Both the position numbers and the translations under genes were made by a program. Shown piece after piece: positions 31,443 to 40,136 of a stretch of 40,291 nucleotides of DNA. The notes under the pieces are model-generated. The model did not search any database. It was not told the DNA's origin and was given only the letters and a program-made list of their open reading frames with translations. Every line of letters starts with the position of its first letter. Within the stretch, counting starts at the first letter, position 1. This DNA is from Clostridia bacterium (lineage in GTDB: Bacteria; Bacillota; Clostridia; Lachnospirales; JAOARL01): contig JAOARL010000035.1 in the NCBI GenBank assembly GCA_025210555.1, positions 1 to 40,291 on the forward strand, given 5' to 3'.

Positions 31443-31553
31443 TAGTAACTAATGTAGTAAAATCAAGTAATTTAAATGTTATAAAATACTAGAAAAAATA
31501 AAAAGTAAGAACTATAATTAGTGTAGTTGAATATAAGTAGGGGGAAGATAAGA

Positions 31554-32765
31554 TTGAAAAGGTTATTTAGAATTAGTTTTGATATATTAGCAACATCCAT
31601 AATACCAATTTTAACTTGGTTTTTTCTAAGTAAAATTGTGAAAAATGAAGTAATTGAGATATTTACACTTACATATCCAATGCAATTTATTGTGGGGATT
31701 ATAGTTTCTCTTTTTGCAACATCTGCTAATATTAGTAGGGAAAAAGATGGAATAGAAGGATCTGTAATGAGTTCTATTATAGTTGGAATAGTAATAGGAG
31801 GGTTAATAACACTTGCAATAGTAATAAACATAGAAGATTATTTGGATTTTATGAATACTAGGGGGTATATATATACTATTTTCACAAGGTATGCAGTAAT
31901 CCAGATGTTCCTACAATGTATATTAAGTTTAGTGTTAACAAAGCTTTATTATGAGGGGAGAGAAGATAGGGCTAATGTTTATACGGTTATTTTTAATATT
32001 ATGTCATTTGTTTCTATTATAGGTTTAAATTTAATATTAAAAGATTATGTTAGTGCAATAATAGCTTCACTTATTATAGTTGGATTATATACATTTATAA
32101 TATTGATAAAAGAAAGTGAAAAGTTCAAAATTGAACTATCAGTTGAAAGTCTATTTAAATATGATTCAGTTAAGTTATGTAGTCAGATTTTCTTTGTTGT
32201 CATATATATTTTTGGAATAGAGAATATAGTTTCATTTGATAGAGAGTATATAATTGCTATGACATACGTAGCCTTAGTTACTGATGTGGCATGGGATGCT
32301 ATATCATCAATAGGTGTTGTTGCTAAAATAGATATAAGTAAAAATAAGTTTAATATAAAGCATCATTTTAAAAATGCATATATATTAAATTTTATATTAA
32401 TAGCGCTATCAGCGGTAATGTTAATTAGTTTATATTATACGTATAAATTTAATATAAAGTTAGTTATGATATATTACTTTGCTGAAATATTAATCCTTAT
32501 AATATATCCAATATATTGTATAAAAATAATATACTTGCAGTTAGAATATTCGGCGACAAAGATGACAACAAATAGATTTATAACAAATACGATAAGAACG
32601 GCAGCATCGTTTTTAGCAACACCATTTTGTACTATTATAGGTATGGTAGTATCAGACTTTTATCAGTTCTTTACCGTTAATTATATATTTAATAAAAACT
32701 ACTATGTTGATGATATTGGAGAGGTTAAGAAAAAAGAAAAAGGTATATTAACTGAAGCCTTATAG
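31554..32765 (+). CDS. MATE-like polytopic membrane protein (paralogue 1)
   Basis: The 403-aa protein has about 10-12 hydrophobic helices and resembles MOP/MATE exporters in general layout, though the match is weak. Conserved with the gene at 38324 are YPMQFIV, ATSANIS-x2-KDG, GSVMS, QMFLQ, KLYYEG, VVAKIDIS-x-NKF and the TPFCT region. The open frame begins at TTG 31527, but AGGGGGAA (31539-31546) is 7 bp before TTG 31554. That start gives MKRLF, which aligns with MKRLI of the paralogue. The conserved cytoplasmic KDG loop and the late KIDIS segment could be functional sites. Substrate unknown. Confidence 0.6.
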   Translation: MKRLFRISFDILATSIIPILTWFFLSKIVKNEVIEIFTLTYPMQFIVGIIVSLFATSANISREKDGIEGSVMSSIIVGIVIGGLITLAIVINIEDYLDFMNTRGYIYTIFTRYAVIQMFLQCILSLVLTKLYYEGREDRANVYTVIFNIMSFVSIIGLNLILKDYVSAIIASLIIVGLYTFIILIKESEKFKIELSVESLFKYDSVKLCSQIFFVVIYIFGIENIVSFDREYIIAMTYVALVTDVAWDAISSIGVVAKIDISKNKFNIKHHFKNAYILNFILIALSAVMLISLYYTYKFNIKLVMIYYFAEILILIIYPIYCIKIIYLQLEYSATKMTTNRFITNTIRTAASFLATPFCTIIGMVVSDFYQFFTVNYIFNKNYYVDDIGEVKKKEKGILTEAL

Positions 32766-32835
32766 ATAATAAAGCAAAAATAATCAATACCTTGACTGAA
32801 GTTGATGATAATATTCTATTATGAGGAGGCGCAAA

Positions 32836-34146
32836 ATGGATAAATATAATGATATTAATAAAGCAATTAGCTATATTGAAAAAAATATAAAAGAAGGTTT
32901 AACACTTTTAGATATATCAAATAGTGTTAACATATCACCATTTTACTTTCATCGATTATTTTCAAATTTAGTTGGAGAAACTGTTATGAGTTATGTTAAT
33001 AGGAGAAAAGTAACTAACTCACTAGAAGATTTAAGAATTACTAATAGAACAGTGGCTCAAATTGCATATGATTATGGATATGAATCGCAATCAGTTTATC
33101 AAAGAGTTTTCAAAAGATATTTTGGAGTTACACCTGGTAAGTATAGATCAGGAACAAATATATTGGAAAATCAGGAGAGACAATTATTTTGCAAAGCCCA
33201 ACTCAGAAAAAATGTTGAGGGAGATTATTTTATGAATAGAATACTCATTATAGAAGTAGGGTCTACAACGACTAAAACATATGTAGCATATGAAGATATG
33301 AGAGTTGATACATTACCGCTTAAGTATATACCATTTAAAGAAAATTATATATTAGGAAATGGGTTAAGAAATAAAGATATAGAAGAATTAGAACAGTATA
33401 TATTGGAACTTAAGACAAAATACAATGTAGATATTAAAATATGTGGAACTAGTATTTTTAGAAATTTATTAGAAGAGGAAAAAGCTAGCTTTTTTAATAG
33501 ACTAAAAAGAAATACAGGATTAGAATTTGAAATAATTAGCCAAGAAGATGAAGCTAAATATACAGCCAAAGGAGCAGCAGGTAATATATTAGGTAATATA
33601 AGCGTATTAGTAACTGGTGGAGGATCTATGGAGTTAGTTAGATGCCAAGATGGTGAAATACTAGACATTAATTATATGAAATTTGGGGTTGCTGACATTA
33701 TGAAAGAGTTTCCAGCACTTGCTGAAAATAAGACAGATGTAAGCCTTGAAAAATTGGTAGAGTATATAGAATTTAATTATAAAGTTCCAAAAGCAGAAGA
33801 TGAAATCTTGATTTTAGCTGGTGGACAACACTTAATGTTTGCTGATATTGCAAATTATGATCTTACTAAGAATACATTTTATAAAGATATAAATCAGAGA
33901 TATATTATTGATAAAAAAACAGCATATAAAAATGATGAAAGATTTTTTAATGAAGAATCACTCAGTAAATATAAAAAGTTAACACCAGATAATGAAAATT
34001 GGTGGAATGGGACAAGAGCTGCAAGGGGATGTGTTGAAGCTATTGTTAAAGATATGGGAGTTGAATATATAGTACCAACTGATATTAGTATGATTTATGG
34101 AATTGTAAGAGATGTTTATTCTTGTGCTCAAAAAGGTGATAAATAA
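32836..34146 (+). CDS. Fusion of AraC-type DNA-binding domain and Ppx/GppA-like phosphatase-fold domain
   Basis: The 436-aa protein has two parts. Residues 1-104 form a complete AraC-type double helix-turn-helix: TLLDISNSVNISPFYFHRLF and RTVAQIAYDYGYESQSVYQR, ending FKRYFGVTPGKYR. After a 25-residue linker, residues 133-436 resemble exopolyphosphatase/GppA of the ASKHA ATPase fold. The first phosphate loop is IIEVGSTTTKTYV. GTSIFRN corresponds to the GTxAxRxA motif, then comes the GLEFEIISQEDEAKYTAKGA region, and VLVTGGGSMELV corresponds to DxGGGSxE with Thr in place of the Asp. The start is ATG 32836, spaced 7 bp from AGGAGG, not ATG 32821. It is coupled to the methyltransferase gene by TAATG. 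Confidence 0.8.
   Translation: MDKYNDINKAISYIEKNIKEGLTLLDISNSVNISPFYFHRLFSNLVGETVMSYVNRRKVTNSLEDLRITNRTVAQIAYDYGYESQSVYQRVFKRYFGVTPGKYRSGTNILENQERQLFCKAQLRKNVEGDYFMNRILIIEVGSTTTKTYVAYEDMRVDTLPLKYIPFKENYILGNGLRNKDIEELEQYILELKTKYNVDIKICGTSIFRNLLEEEKASFFNRLKRNTGLEFEIISQEDEAKYTAKGAAGNILGNISVLVTGGGSMELVRCQDGEILDINYMKFGVADIMKEFPALAENKTDVSLEKLVEYIEFNYKVPKAEDEILILAGGQHLMFADIANYDLTKNTFYKDINQRYIIDKKTAYKNDERFFNEESLSKYKKLTPDNENWWNGTRAARGCVEAIVKDMGVEYIVPTDISMIYGIVRDVYSCAQKGDK
33217..33234 (+). promoter_or_regulatory. Internal ribosome binding site and ATG between the AraC and Ppx-like domains
   Basis: GAGGGAG (33217-33223) lies 8 bp before an in-frame ATG (33232, residue 133 of the fusion). That ATG begins exactly at the first strand of the Ppx/GppA-like domain. 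It could give a separate 304-aa product, or mark a former intergenic start codon. Confidence 0.5.
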
Positions 34147-34841
34147 TGGAATATACTAAAATGGCACAATATTATGATGAGCTTTATGATTATAAAGAGT
34201 ATGATAAGGAAGTTGCCTTTTTAAATAGTATTTTAAAAGGCAAGTCTAATGTGTTAGATGTAGGATGTGGAACAGGCAATCACATAAAAGAACTTGAAAG
34301 ATTTGGATATAAATGTGACGGTATAGATAAGAGTAAAGAGATGGTTGAAATAACTAAATCAAAAATATCAGGACAAGTATACTTAGGAGATATGTTAAAT
34401 TTTAAGATAAGAAAAAAGTATGATGCAATTATATCTATGTTTGCTGTTATTAATCATTTAAATAGTATTAACGAATTAGAGATGGTATTACTTAATATGA
34501 AAAATCATTTAAGAGAAAATGGAATTATTATATTAGATTTATATAATCCAAGTAAATCTGGTAATAAGACAGATCAAAAAGGAAATATAAAAAGAATTAT
34601 GAATTGGGAAATAGATTTAAATAATAAAACAGAAAAAACAAATATTAAATATATAATAAATGAAGAAGATGTTGTAGAAACTAATCATTGTTTTAAGATA
34701 TTTGATATAGATGAAATTTCTATAGTAGCTAAAAATATAGGACTGGATATAATTAGTATATACAGTAACTATAAGACTGAAGAAGAAAATTTAAACGAAA
34801 AGAGAATACAACTTTTAATAAGTAGAGATAATCATAATTAA
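34146..34841 (+). CDS. Class I SAM-dependent methyltransferase
   Basis: The 231-aa protein has the SAM-binding motif I VLDVGCGTGNH (36-46), motif II YKCDGIDKSKEM, an acidic GDMLNF motif and the post-I helix. The YDELYDYKEYDKEV N-terminus is common in small-molecule methyltransferases of the UbiE/TehB-like group. The substrate cannot be inferred. Its ATG overlaps the stop codon of the AraC-Ppx fusion gene (TAATG), indicating strong translational coupling and a likely shared pathway. A weak terminator follows. Confidence 0.88.
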   Translation: MEYTKMAQYYDELYDYKEYDKEVAFLNSILKGKSNVLDVGCGTGNHIKELERFGYKCDGIDKSKEMVEITKSKISGQVYLGDMLNFKIRKKYDAIISMFAVINHLNSINELEMVLLNMKNHLRENGIIILDLYNPSKSGNKTDQKGNIKRIMNWEIDLNNKTEKTNIKYIINEEDVVETNHCFKIFDIDEISIVAKNIGLDIISIYSNYKTEEENLNEKRIQLLISRDNHN

Positions 34842-34860
34842 GATTTTCTCTATTTTTATT
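34823..34860 (+). terminator. Weak intrinsic terminator
   Basis: TAGAGA (34823-34828) can pair with TCTCTA (34847-34852) across an 18-nt loop, followed by TTTTTATTTT. Confidence 0.45.
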
Positions 34861-34871
34861 TTATATAAAAA

Positions 34872-34880
34872 TGATATAAT
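34872..34880 (+). promoter_or_regulatory. Extended -10 promoter for the second NUDIX gene
   Basis: TGATATAAT lies 68 bp before the NUDIX start codon, downstream of the weak terminator. Confidence 0.45.
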
Positions 34881-34948
34881 TATTTATGATAACTTATAAG
34901 TTGTTTATAGAGTTATAGAAGATGTATTAAAGAAAGGATTTGATATTA

Positions 34949-35686
34949 ATGAATATTAGAAATATGTCATATATAATATTTTATGATAATAATGAAGTTT
35001 ATATGTTAGATTATGGTGAAGATGCTAGATATAGATATGGATTACCAGGTGGAAAGATAGATGAAGGTGAAACGAGTTTTGAAGCATTGAATCGTGAACT
35101 AGGTGAAGAAATGAATTATAGTGTTAATGAAAGAGGTTTAATTCGTTTAGATAATATAAATATTAAATATAAATATTTTGATAAAGAATGTAAAAGTAAT
35201 ATTAATTTATACATTAAAGAGCATAGTCAAGGATTTAGAGATCTAAATGAAGGGCTTGAGATAGTTAAATTAGATGTTAGTAAAGCTTTGAAATTAAGTA
35301 TGACAGAACCTATAAAAGAAAGCTTGGAAATGTATATTACTTATAAGATACAAAAAGAGATAGAGAAGATTTTTTTAAAGAATTCATTTATGGTTGAAAG
35401 AGAAAATGAAGAATATACTTTACTAAAATATATGGAAGAAAAAGAGTATGGAGCAGTGTCAGTGTATGTATATAAAAATAGAAAAGAAATTTTATTGAAT
35501 TATGGTGAAATTACTCATGAACACTTAGATGAATATGATTTTGAAAGTGGAAGATATTTAGAAGAAATAGAAAATTATTTAGAGAAATTATTAAATGATG
35601 AAATATATTTTAGTTCTAACAAAATAAGAGATAAATATCCAGATTTTCCAAGAGATTATTATGTGTTTAGCGGTAAATTAAGATAG
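34949..35686 (+). CDS. NUDIX hydrolase with C-terminal extension
   Basis: The 245-aa protein opens with a Nudix domain. The box at 35-57 (G-KIDEG-E ... RELGEEMNY) keeps all Glu ligands and has Asn in place of the last Gly. Residues from about 125 form an additional domain of some 120 aa, helical and acidic (for example KYMEEKEYGAVSVYVYKN and EIENYLEKLL), that I do not recognise. The frame opens at TTG 34940, but AAAGGA fits ATG 34949. It is followed 9 bp later by a HAD phosphatase gene. The substrate is probably a nucleotide derivative. Confidence 0.82.
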   Translation: MNIRNMSYIIFYDNNEVYMLDYGEDARYRYGLPGGKIDEGETSFEALNRELGEEMNYSVNERGLIRLDNINIKYKYFDKECKSNINLYIKEHSQGFRDLNEGLEIVKLDVSKALKLSMTEPIKESLEMYITYKIQKEIEKIFLKNSFMVERENEEYTLLKYMEEKEYGAVSVYVYKNRKEILLNYGEITHEHLDEYDFESGRYLEEIENYLEKLLNDEIYFSSNKIRDKYPDFPRDYYVFSGKLR

Positions 35687-35695
35687 GAGAATAAT

Positions 35696-36433
35696 ATGAA
35701 AATGATAATATTTGATTTGGATGGAACTCTTCTAAATAGTGAAGAGCAAATACCAAATTCAACAATAGAATATATAAATAAAATAAAAGAACAAGAAGTA
35801 GTAATAATGGCAGCTACTGGAAGAACATTATTAGAAACAGTAGAAGTGGAAAGCATAAAAGACATATGTGATTATATTTTATCAAGTGATGGAGCTAGTC
35901 TATTAGATGTAAAAGAAGATAATTTTATATACAATAGAGAAATAAGTAAAGAAGGTATTGAAAAGCTATATAGTATAGTTAATCATGAACATATAGATAC
36001 AATATTTTATAGTTTAAATGGTGAAAAAGATAAAATGGATGAAGATGATAGAGTGAATAAAGTTAAACTTTTTTTTGATGATAATGACAAAATCAATTAT
36101 TATTGCAAAAAAATTAATGATAACTATTCAAACGAATATACAGCAACAGCTATGAAGCATTCTTCAAGAGAAGAATATTGGTTAGCTATTAACAATAGCG
36201 ATACAGATAAAAGTACAGGGTTAAAATATCTTAAGAATAAATTATCAATTGATAAGAAAGAGATTATATCTTTTGGAGATAGAGCTAATGATATACCAAA
36301 TTTTAAAGAGTCAGGGATTGCTGTAGCAATGGAAAATGCAGCAGATGAAGTTAAGAGTGCATCAACACATATAACTAGATCAAATGATGAACTAGGAGTT
36401 GAACTAGTACTAAGAAAGATATTTGATATATAA
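35696..36433 (+). CDS. HAD-IIB (Cof-type) phosphatase
   Basis: The 245-aa protein has motif I IIFDLDGTLLNS (D7, D9), motif II AATGR, a cap region with NGEKD and YYCKK segments, and motifs III/IV K-STGLKYL and SFGDRANDIPNF. This is the full Cof/YidA set. Family members dephosphorylate sugar phosphates or phosphorylated coenzymes. The cap, which sets substrate choice, is short (about 100 aa). TAGGAG precedes the ATG. It continues the NUDIX operon and is followed 15 bp later by a membrane protein gene. Confidence 0.9.
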   Translation: MKMIIFDLDGTLLNSEEQIPNSTIEYINKIKEQEVVIMAATGRTLLETVEVESIKDICDYILSSDGASLLDVKEDNFIYNREISKEGIEKLYSIVNHEHIDTIFYSLNGEKDKMDEDDRVNKVKLFFDDNDKINYYCKKINDNYSNEYTATAMKHSSREEYWLAINNSDTDKSTGLKYLKNKLSIDKKEIISFGDRANDIPNFKESGIAVAMENAADEVKSASTHITRSNDELGVELVLRKIFDI

Positions 36434-36448
36434 GGAGTATAGATAAGA

Positions 36449-36994
36449 ATGGTAAATATTTTGATAAGTATTCCAATAATAGCATTTTTAAGTCAATTGT
36501 TATTTTCAGCATATGAAAATAATACTAAGGCATTTATAAAGAATTATACAATCTCTATACTAGATTTTATATTTATACCTTTCAATGTTTATGCATATAA
36601 TGCAATATATTGGGGAAATTATAGATTAACCATAGGATTACTAATTTTATCAAGCTTAGGATCTCTATATACACATTATAATTGGAGTAAAGAACCAGAT
36701 AGGCATAAACATATAGTTAAAAGCTATAAAAGACTTCATATTTCAGGATATATTCATGCTATATTTTGTATAGTAGAAATGCTAATCATAGGAATGCTAG
36801 TATTAAGTTATAGAGTTGATAGAATTTTAGAATATAAGATAGCAGGAGTAATATTAATAATATATTTCCTGTTTTCTATAGTTTCAAGCTACTACGTGCA
36901 TAATAGAAAAATTTATATGGAAGATCTACTAAGAGGAGTTTTAGGTGGAATAATAATAGGGTTAACGCTTATTATTAGAGGAATTGTATTTTAG
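36449..36994 (+). CDS. Predicted integral membrane protein
   Basis: No family recognised. The 181-aa protein has about five hydrophobic helices (near 2-20, 30-50, 60-77, 105-125, 130-150 and a last one near 160-180). A hydrophilic loop between the third and fourth is rich in His and basic residues (HYNWSKEPDRHKHIVKSYKR). No catalytic motif can be seen. AAGGAG is 11 bp before the ATG. The ATPase gene begins only 8 bp downstream, so a membrane protein-ATPase pair is possible. Confidence 0.7.
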   Translation: MVNILISIPIIAFLSQLLFSAYENNTKAFIKNYTISILDFIFIPFNVYAYNAIYWGNYRLTIGLLILSSLGSLYTHYNWSKEPDRHKHIVKSYKRLHISGYIHAIFCIVEMLIIGMLVLSYRVDRILEYKIAGVILIIYFLFSIVSSYYVHNRKIYMEDLLRGVLGGIIIGLTLIIRGIVF

Positions 36995-37002
36995 GGGGAT
37001 TT

Positions 37003-37713
37003 ATGAATAATAATTTTGTGAAAAAGTTAAGAATAGATTGGGAGAATATAAATAGTGATAGCTATTTGCATGATATAAAATCAATTAGGACAAATGAGGG
37101 AATTGATTTTAATAAAAAAATAACATTCTTTGTTGGAGAAAATGGTTCGGGCAAATCTACACTACTTGAAGCGATAGCTGTAAATTATGGATTTAATCCT
37201 GAAGGTGGTAGCATAAATTATAATTTTGAAACAGAAAACACTCATTCAATACTATCTGATAACATGATACTTGAAAAAGGTTATAGAGCTGAAGATGGAT
37301 TCTTTTTAAGAGCAGAAAGCTTTTATAATCTTGCAAGTTATGTAGATAGTGTATCTCTTGATTTAAGTGAATATGGCGACAAATCATTACACAAACAATC
37401 CCATGGAGAAAGTTTTTTATCGCTTATATGTAATAGATTTAGGGGAAATGGATTATATATATTAGATGAGCCAGAAGCTGCATTATCGCCACAAAGACAA
37501 TTAACTTTAATATCTAAAATAAAGGAACTAGCAAGAGAAGGCTCTCAGTTTATAATAGTTACGCACTCTCCAATAATACTAGGAATTGACGAAAGTGAAA
37601 TATACTCATTTGATAATGATGAAATTTCAAAAATAGATTATGAAGATACAGAAGCATATAAAATAACTAAACTTTTTTTACATGACAGAGATAGAATGAT
37701 TAAATATTTATAA
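37003..37713 (+). CDS. Small AAA/ABC-type ATPase (AAA_21-like)
   Basis: The 236-aa cytoplasmic ATPase has Walker A GENGSGKST (45-53), an ABC-like signature in QSHGESFLSL, Walker B LYILDEPEAALSP, a D-loop and the H-loop THSP. The short insert between Walker A and the signature contains FFLRAESFYNLASYVD. This is the compact RecF/SMC-related ABC ATPase seen in stand-alone bacterial proteins. No transmembrane part or coiled coil is present. AGGGGG precedes the ATG. The direct neighbours are an unknown membrane protein and a deoxyribonucleotidase. Confidence 0.87.
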   Translation: MNNNFVKKLRIDWENINSDSYLHDIKSIRTNEGIDFNKKITFFVGENGSGKSTLLEAIAVNYGFNPEGGSINYNFETENTHSILSDNMILEKGYRAEDGFFLRAESFYNLASYVDSVSLDLSEYGDKSLHKQSHGESFLSLICNRFRGNGLYILDEPEAALSPQRQLTLISKIKELAREGSQFIIVTHSPIILGIDESEIYSFDNDEISKIDYEDTEAYKITKLFLHDRDRMIKYL

Positions 37714-37737
37714 ATATAGAATAAGAGAGGTTTTGCA

Positions 37738-38340
37738 ATGAGAATAGGAATAGATATAGATGACACATTAACAAATTTATATGAATATACTATAGCATAT
37801 GGTCAGATGTATGATTATGAAGAGTTAGAAAAGGATAGTATGATAAATCCATATGGTTATGATACACCTTTTATATTTGAATGGTCAGATGAAGAAGATA
37901 AAAGCTTTTGGGAAAAGTATATTGAAGAAATAGTAACCAAAGTTAATCCAAGACCGTTTGCAGTGAGTGTGATAGAGAGATTAAGAAGAGAAGGTCATGA
38001 AATATACATAATAACAGCTAGATCAAATTTATGGTATAAAAATCCATATAAAATATCAGAAGAATGGCTTCTTAAAAATAAAATAGAATATGATAAATTA
38101 GTTGTTAGTGCTAGAGATAAGGTTAAAGCTTGTAAAGAAAATGATATAGATATACATATAGATGATAGCAATAAACACTTAAAAGAACTAACCGAAGCTG
38201 GGATACCAGTTCTTTTATATGATAATGTATTTAATAAAAAAAGTGATACTAAATTATCTATTAGAGTTTATTCTTGGCCACAAATATATAATGAAATACA
38301 AAAATTAACTAAGAGGGAAAAAAATGAAAAGACTAATTAA
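37738..38340 (+). CDS. 5'(3')-deoxyribonucleotidase-like HAD phosphatase (copy 2)
   Basis: The 200-aa paralogue of the gene at 22318. Motif I is DIDDTLT (D6, D8, T10), motif II IYIITARS, a Lys in RDKVKACK and motif IV IHIDDSNK. The cap insert (EWSDEEDKSFWEKYIEE) is longer than in copy 1 and the C-terminus adds VYSWPQIYNEIQKL. All catalytic residues are present. The 3' end overlaps the next membrane protein gene by 17 bp, pointing to translational coupling with the transporter. Confidence 0.85.
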   Translation: MRIGIDIDDTLTNLYEYTIAYGQMYDYEELEKDSMINPYGYDTPFIFEWSDEEDKSFWEKYIEEIVTKVNPRPFAVSVIERLRREGHEIYIITARSNLWYKNPYKISEEWLLKNKIEYDKLVVSARDKVKACKENDIDIHIDDSNKHLKELTEAGIPVLLYDNVFNKKSDTKLSIRVYSWPQIYNEIQKLTKREKNEKTN

Positions 38341-39538
38341 GGTTGGATTAGATATATTATTATTTTCAATAGTTCCAGTTATAACATGGTTTGTACTTGG
38401 AATAATTATTGGCGGCAATATAATTAGTATATTTATTGTAAGTTATCCTATTCAGTTCATAGTGGAGATGCTGAAGTCTATTTTTGCAACAGGTGCAAAT
38501 ATTAGTCAATCAAAGGATGGGTTAAAGGGCTCAGTTATGTCAGGAGCAGTTATTGGAATTGTTGTAGGAACAATTATGTGGGCATTAATGCTTATGAATG
38601 TAGACAATTATATGCATTTTATGAATGTTAGTGGAGCTACATATAAATTATTTTTAACATATGCAATAGCTCAGATGTTTTTACAATATGTTTTAAGAAT
38701 TGTGCTCATGAAATTATATTATGAAGGAGACAATATAAGAGCAAATAATTATACAGTTAAGTTTAATGCCTTGAATTTTTTTATTTTAATTAGCTCTATA
38801 CTTTTAACAAATAATTATATTACTGCAGTAATAATAACTCTTGTGGCTATGAGTATATATACATTGTTTGTATGTGTAAAAGTGTTTGAAAAATTCAAGT
38901 TTAACTTTAATTTAACTAATGCACTTAAGTATGATTCACTTGATTTGTTTAGTAATTTTTCTATGTTTGTTATATATATGGTTGGGGTAAATAACATAAT
39001 GCAATATGGAAAAGAATATGTTGTAGCTATAACATTTGTAACTCTTATAACAGATACTCAGTGGGATATTTCTGATGCGGTGACAGTTGTTGCAAAAATA
39101 GATATAAGCCAAAACAAGTTTATACTAAAAAAACATATAAAAAATGCATATAAGCTTTTATCAATTCTTTTAATGAGTACAATTATTATGCTATTAGTAT
39201 TATTTAGATATTATGATTTGAATCTAACGATTGTTTTAATTAGTTTGTCGGTAGATGTACTTGGATTTGTATTATATCCCATATATATTGTTAAAACTTG
39301 TTATCTTCAGATTGAGTATTCACCGATGAAAACTACATCTAATAAAGTAATATCTAATGCATTAAGAACAGGAGCATCTTTTTTAAGAACTCCTTATTGT
39401 ACAGGAATAGGACAACTTATATCTTGTATATATCAAACTATAACAATAAATGCTATTTTTAAAAAGAATTATGAAATAGATAAGGAAACGGGTATAATTA
39501 TCAAAAAAAGAAAAATTATTGGAGAAGAAATTGGTTGA
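38324..39538 (+). CDS. MATE-like polytopic membrane protein (paralogue 2)
   Basis: A 404-aa protein with about 10-12 membrane helices, clearly homologous to the gene at 31554 along its whole length. Shared segments include YPIQFIV, ATGANIS-x2-KDG, KGSVMSG, QMFLQY, KLYYEGD, VVAKIDIS-x-NKF and RTPYCT. Hydropathy and length are close to MATE exporters, but the family match is weak. AGAGGG precedes the ATG, which lies inside the end of the deoxyribonucleotidase gene. The tail is basic (IIKKRKIIGEE). Substrate unknown. Confidence 0.6.
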   Translation: MKRLIKVGLDILLFSIVPVITWFVLGIIIGGNIISIFIVSYPIQFIVEMLKSIFATGANISQSKDGLKGSVMSGAVIGIVVGTIMWALMLMNVDNYMHFMNVSGATYKLFLTYAIAQMFLQYVLRIVLMKLYYEGDNIRANNYTVKFNALNFFILISSILLTNNYITAVIITLVAMSIYTLFVCVKVFEKFKFNFNLTNALKYDSLDLFSNFSMFVIYMVGVNNIMQYGKEYVVAITFVTLITDTQWDISDAVTVVAKIDISQNKFILKKHIKNAYKLLSILLMSTIIMLLVLFRYYDLNLTIVLISLSVDVLGFVLYPIYIVKTCYLQIEYSPMKTTSNKVISNALRTGASFLRTPYCTGIGQLISCIYQTITINAIFKKNYEIDKETGIIIKKRKIIGEEIG

Positions 39539-39566
39539 AATATATAATTAAAAGGAGATGATATAT

Positions 39567-40136
39567 ATGTCATATGTGCCAAATTATGATGAAGCATTAG
39601 AAATATTAAAAAAATATAATAAGGAAGAGTTTCATATACAGCATGGTCAAGTTGTAGGAGGGGTTATGAGATATTTTGCAGAGCAATTTGATCCAGAAAA
39701 TATAGATTTTTGGGAAATTGTAGGTCTGTTACATGATTTAGATTTTGGGATGTACCCAGAAGAGCATTGTGTTAAGCAGGTTGAAATTATGAGAGAATTA
39801 GGATTATCTGAGGATATCATACGTTCTACAGTAAGTCATGGATATGGAATGACGGGAACTGAAGTTAAACCTGAGCATAAGATGGAAAAAATACTTTTTA
39901 CTATTGATGAAATGACTGGAATTATTGGAGCTGCTGCTTTGATGAGACCATCAAAAAGTGTAGCAGATATGGAGCTTAAATCGGTTAAGAAAAAATTCAA
40001 AGACAAGAAATTTGCGGCAGGTTGTTCAAGAGAAGTAATACAGGAAGGTGCAGAAAATTTAGGTTGGGAAATGAATTATGTAATGGAAGAAACACTAAAT
40101 GGAATGAAAACATTAGTAGAAAAGTTAGGAATATAA
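39567..40136 (+). CDS. HD-domain hydrolase
   Basis: The 189-aa protein has HIQHGQVVGGVMRYFA (H26), VGLLHDLDFGMYPEEHC (H56, D57), a conserved VSHGYGMTG loop and the distal Asp in FTIDEMTG. These form the H...HD...D metal site of small HD hydrolases of the type often annotated as metal-dependent phosphohydrolases. The LMRPSKSVADMELKSVKKKFKDKKFAAG tail is a familiar feature of this subgroup. The frame opens at ATG 39558, but AAAGGAG fits ATG 39567. It ends 15 bp before the right IS repeat, whose hairpin acts as its terminator. Confidence 0.85.
   Translation: MSYVPNYDEALEILKKYNKEEFHIQHGQVVGGVMRYFAEQFDPENIDFWEIVGLLHDLDFGMYPEEHCVKQVEIMRELGLSEDIIRSTVSHGYGMTGTEVKPEHKMEKILFTIDEMTGIIGAAALMRPSKSVADMELKSVKKKFKDKKFAAGCSREVIQEGAENLGWEMNYVMEETLNGMKTLVEKLGI

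Follow-up and report, generated by a model that had tools for sequence, protein, structure and literature searches.

The 436-residue protein encoded at 32836-34146 (+) of the window, the whole 40,291-nucleotide stretch analysed here (positions 1 to 40,291 of the Clostridia contig JAOARL010000035.1), joins an N-terminal AraC-type double HTH to a C-terminal Ppx/GppA-like ASKHA domain. The same architecture recurs in a genome of another family, and sequence comparison places the ASKHA domain in a coherent family apart from the canonical exopolyphosphatases. We propose, at about an even chance of being right, that the protein is a one-component regulator resembling Rob, in which the ASKHA domain serves as the sensor and binds a nucleotide phosphate.

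The fused gene and its counterpart in UBA12072

The gene is a single unbroken open reading frame that runs from the ATG at 32836 to the stop codon at 34146 and comprises the following elements.

32824..32829 (+), Shine-Dalgarno sequence AGGAGG, 6 nt 5' of ATG 32836, assigned by sequence reading
32836..33150 (+), AraC-type double HTH, residues 1-105 (Pfam HTH_AraC 7.4e-22, HTH_18 1.2e-19)
33151..33231 (+), interdomain linker, residues 106-132 (27 residues), with N-V-E-G-D-Y-F before Met133
33220..33223 (+), Shine-Dalgarno-like GGAG, 8 nt 5' of the internal ATG 33232 (Met133)
33232..34143 (+), Ppx/GppA-like ASKHA domain, residues 133-436 (304 residues; Pfam PF02541)

Translation more probably begins at 32836 than at an alternative in-frame ATG upstream, at 32821, which is overlapped by the AGGAGG site. 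The two domains are each complete and lie in a common reading frame. The double HTH scored 77.4 bits against HTH_AraC (cut-off 26.6) and 70.8 bits against HTH_18 (cut-off 33.6), and the ASKHA domain 48.5 bits against Pfam Ppx-GppA (1e-12; cut-off 27), with a PDB profile match to Aquifex Ppx/GppA at 1.4e-18. A sequence-only reading of this DNA had described an AraC HTH joined to a Ppx/GppA-like ASKHA domain; the single frame and the Pfam matches to both parts bear this out, and HTH_18 and Ppx-GppA, the models it had named for the two halves, both scored above cut-off. The four motifs that it had picked out, VGSTTTKTYV, GTS-x-x-R-N (here GTSIFRN), SQEDEAKY and GGGSMEL, were all found in the protein.

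Whole-genome search of relatives revealed a full-length homologue in the metagenome-assembled genome Clostridiales bacterium UBA12072, which belongs to the same order and to another family. Its 445-residue open reading frame has an identical domain architecture, and identity between the two proteins is 49.5% over the HTH, falls to 37% across the linker and is 49.8% for the ASKHA domain. As the fusion recurs with ~50% identity in both halves, these have been kept together across families. The earlier reading had allowed that a sequencing error might have joined two genes, and Met133 of the fusion indeed aligns with the start methionine of stand-alone ASKHA proteins; however, UBA12072 is an independent genome that carries the same in-frame fusion with linker residues partly in common, which excludes a sequencing or assembly error and leaves an artefact with negligible probability.

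These two are the only known fusion genes. No further fusion was found among 392 genomes of the order or 398 of the phylum, nor in two other genomes of the family of UBA12072, which was also the sole match in pattern scans of genome contigs, scans that reach close relatives only. In the window genome, no other Ppx-GppA match was found, and a whole-protein search with the HTH included returned the fusion gene as its sole match. In the open-access papers searched, the combination of an AraC regulator and a Ppx/GppA-type domain did not appear. A viral or plasmid origin was considered and rejected: no relatives were found in viral contigs or phages, and Azospirillum plasmids gave weak matches only, at the level of ordinary Ppx. 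Assignment to a defence system was likewise rejected, the fusion having no PADLOC match.

Further analysis of the HTH revealed that several of its near homologues are AraC-GyrI regulators; L005, L007, L008, L013 and L028 contain the GyrI-like effector domain (PF06445/PF14526) that a Pfam search did not find in the fusion protein. Alignment with L005, L007 and L008 gave an AraC-GyrI linker pattern S-V-E-G-G-Y-x-M, to which the fusion linker is similar; L005 and L007 have E-G-G-Y-x-M at the linker end, where the fusion has E-G-D-Y-F-M. Rob/AraC-GyrI proteins and the fusion thus share an N-terminal AraC double HTH, a short linker with an E-G-G-Y-x-M-like end and a C-terminal domain in the effector position, which has a GyrI-like fold in the former and is the 304-residue ASKHA domain in the latter. 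On one reading, based on the short linker resemblance, the ASKHA domain would have replaced a GyrI-type effector domain; alternatively, a neighbouring ASKHA gene may have been joined at its own start (Met133, with GGAG 8 nt upstream). The best HTH match overall is not an AraC-GyrI protein; it is a protein (L003:538-1839, -) with a similar N-terminal join of HTH and enzyme, in which the AraC HTH is fused to a polymerase-beta-type nucleotidyltransferase (PF18765, 2.6e-8).

The ASKHA family and its active site

When the whole class was searched with both fused ASKHA domains as queries, two stand-alone relatives (G1011, 1.6e-59; G974, 6.5e-36) proved much nearer to them than canonical Ppx is. Within the order to which these two belong, a different one from that of the fusions, 69 of the 290 genomes searched carry the family, and nearly all of its examined loci are separate genes of about 290-300 codons. 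It is common in this order of small-genome bacteria, yet this Ppx-like family is apparently new to description. Each of the 36 members in the alignment gave matches to both PF02541 and TIGR03706 (E <= 0.01); for TIGR03706 (exopolyphosphatase), the window protein scored 54.1 bits and did not reach the curated cut-off of 307. In a maximum-likelihood tree, the ASKHA family is split from canonical Ppx/GppA with support of 100/100, and the two fusions form one clade (100/97) nested within the stand-alone family (99/98), for which a single fusion event would be the simplest account. Stand-alone members (L077, L078 and L110-L147) share with the fusion the clade, the invariant residues and nearby NUDIX genes; by contrast, they have no HTH, and a few are fused to GNAT or DUF218 domains. 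One such ASKHA domain (L114:5861-6970, -) has an N-terminal GNAT acetyltransferase (Pfam 1.1e-16), a second (L119:5780-6919, -) has an N-terminal extension similar to that GNAT, and at a third locus (L147:6277-7827, -) a Ppx-like domain is followed by a DUF218 domain.

In the exopolyphosphatase DrPPX, D7 contacts magnesium, while E114, D136 and E143 contact a water; E114 is in turn contacted by R86, and mutation of D136 reduces activity (PMC11234463). Residues R86, E114 and E143 correspond to R209, E239 and E266 of the fusion, which are kept in 36/36 family members. The loop Asp (D136 in DrPPX) is Val259 in the fusion and Ile, Asn or Val in all 36 members, with Asp in 0/36, compared to 39/40 canonical Ppx/GppA proteins from the same searches. 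The earlier reading had rightly noticed that the Asp before GGGS is lost but had placed Thr in its stead; the canonical form of the loop is D-x-G-G-G-S, where Thr260 occupies the x position and the Asp column aligns with Val259. The Asp of the IDxGS motif (D7 in DrPPX) is conservatively replaced by Glu140, the family having Glu in 30 members and Asp in 6. The REG motif, mostly R/K-E-G in canonical proteins, reads IYG in the fusion and mostly xYG in the family, in which K147, K168, N346 and P414 are invariant.

Compared to Ppx/GppA (PF02541; Aquifex 1t6c; TIGR03706), the fusion has the GS loop, the catalytic Arg/Glu/Glu and a GGGS-type loop in common. Its family differs in that the loop Asp is always absent, the IDxGS Asp is mostly Glu and REG is lost, and it adds the invariant K168, N346 and P414, to which the fusion adds the HTH. 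The label Ppx/GppA-like given earlier is supported, although the domain falls in a clade apart from ordinary Ppx/GppA. As the Arg/Glu/Glu set is kept and the loop Asp is absent, the ASKHA cleft probably still binds phosphate, with hydrolysis altered or lost. AlphaFold models built from two-sequence alignments were of low confidence (pLDDT 48 and 55, with 55 for the ASKHA domain). Foldseek with the pLDDT-55 model returned Ppx/GppA structures for all of the top 35 PDB matches at a TM of about 0.5, the best being 1t6d (1.2e-13), with NTPDase among the next fold matches; coming from a low-confidence model, the Ppx/GppA matches are supportive only.

Gene surroundings

The fusion gene lies within a co-directional run (31527-40136) that includes the following genes.

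31527..32765 (+), polytopic membrane protein directly upstream, with no Pfam or NCBIfam family
34146..34841 (+), SAM-dependent methyltransferase (Pfam Methyltransf_23, 9.7e-16)
34940..35686 (+), NUDIX-domain protein downstream (Pfam NUDIX, 2.5e-7)
37738..38340 (+), NT5C-type 5'-nucleotidase (Pfam NT5C, 2.9e-9)

A HAD gene also lies downstream in the run, an HD_3 gene lies upstream of the fusion gene, and the membrane protein gene is a putative operon member. The start of the methyltransferase gene overlaps the stop codon of the fusion by 1 nt, which makes the translational coupling suggested earlier plausible, but no methyltransferase gene stands beside the second fusion. Predicted proteins of the run at 31527-32765, 36449-36994, 38324-39538 and 39558-40136 have no significant Pfam match. 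A small AAA ATPase encoded at 37003-37713 matches the PADLOC ATPase models mad3, AriA, PtuA and GajA; no match to a partner defence system was established for it in PADLOC. A promoter scan gave sites no more numerous than in shuffled sequences.

The UBA12072 fusion has different neighbours, none of them nucleotide-related, and an apparent resolvase gene, recognised by sequence reading, lies about 2.6 kb upstream of it. For the stand-alone family, genes up to two positions away were scanned with Pfam, with other regions of the same genomes as controls. NUDIX genes made up 17/123 of these neighbours versus at most 1/123 control genes (Fisher p = 4e-5 with the control taken as 1, an optimistic value because the loci come from related genomes and are non-independent). 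Ham1 (5) and GNAT (6) neighbours were also commoner than in controls, not significantly so.

Candidate function and ligand

We propose that the fusion is built in the manner of Rob/AraC-GyrI regulators, with an N-terminal AraC double HTH, a short linker and a C-terminal effector domain, and that the ASKHA domain stands in for the usual GyrI-type effector. The cleft would bind a nucleotide-like phosphorylated ligand, perhaps with slow turnover, and its closing would alter the binding of the HTH to DNA. The putative target is the protein's own co-directional run, namely the membrane protein, methyltransferase, NUDIX, HAD and NT5C genes; sequence-specific DNA binding and transcriptional control by the fusion are likewise predicted.

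The ligand itself can be narrowed to some extent. The sequence-only reading had suggested a transcription factor that senses polyphosphate or (p)ppGpp; sensing of a phosphate compound stays plausible, and homology to Ppx/GppA speaks for the two compounds named. No recognisable PPK1 or PPK2 was found in either fusion genome, which disfavours polyphosphate, whereas (p)ppGpp is possible, as each has one RelA/SpoT gene, though this signal is not singled out by any of the observations. With the ASKHA clade separate and its active site altered, we regard a sensor of either compound as improbable. The nucleotide-related neighbourhood weakly favours a nucleotide-type ligand. A bolder reading takes the fusion as a new class of regulator. 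Its ASKHA domain, altered in the catalytic loop, would detect a nucleotide-type phosphate inside the cell, such as a non-canonical or damaged nucleotide, and the protein would govern genes for nucleotide clean-up. This seems rather doubtful on present evidence; if it were true, the stand-alone proteins would form a new family of enzymes or sensors in that pathway. Discovery of the ligand would give the ASKHA family a function and could expose a transcription factor that senses a nucleotide-phosphate signal directly.

Ada unites an AraC HTH and a methyltransferase domain in one chain, and its catalytic domain acts as the sensor. It is a precedent for combining an HTH with a catalytic sensor, although its catalytic domain and chemistry are unrelated to those of the fusion. 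Since the three catalytic residues are invariant, the ASKHA domain could be an active enzyme instead of a sensor, a phosphohydrolase or phosphotransferase whose substrate would be a nucleotide or another phosphorylated metabolite, with the AraC part linking operon expression to that substrate. The conservation of R209, E239 and E266 in 36 members points in this direction, as do the enzyme-like association of stand-alone relatives with NUDIX and Ham1 genes, the fusions to GNAT (L114, and L119 by similar sequence) or DUF218 (L147), and the NTPDase among the fold matches after Ppx/GppA. However, the water-holding loop Asp is missing from every member, and DrPPX becomes less active when its equivalent residue, D136, is mutated (PMC11234463); such a bifunctional enzyme-regulator is somewhat unlikely.

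A possible internal start at Met133 raises a further possibility, that the gene yields two products, the complete regulator and the ASKHA domain on its own. In its favour, the GGAG lies 8 nt 5' of an ATG that aligns with the starts of the stand-alone proteins. The equivalent stretch of UBA12072 has a weaker site, though, and the site may be there by chance, since AraC-GyrI linkers have the E-G-D/G-Y-x-M motif as well; two products would be quite improbable, and would be compatible with the Rob-like sensor rather than exclusive of it.
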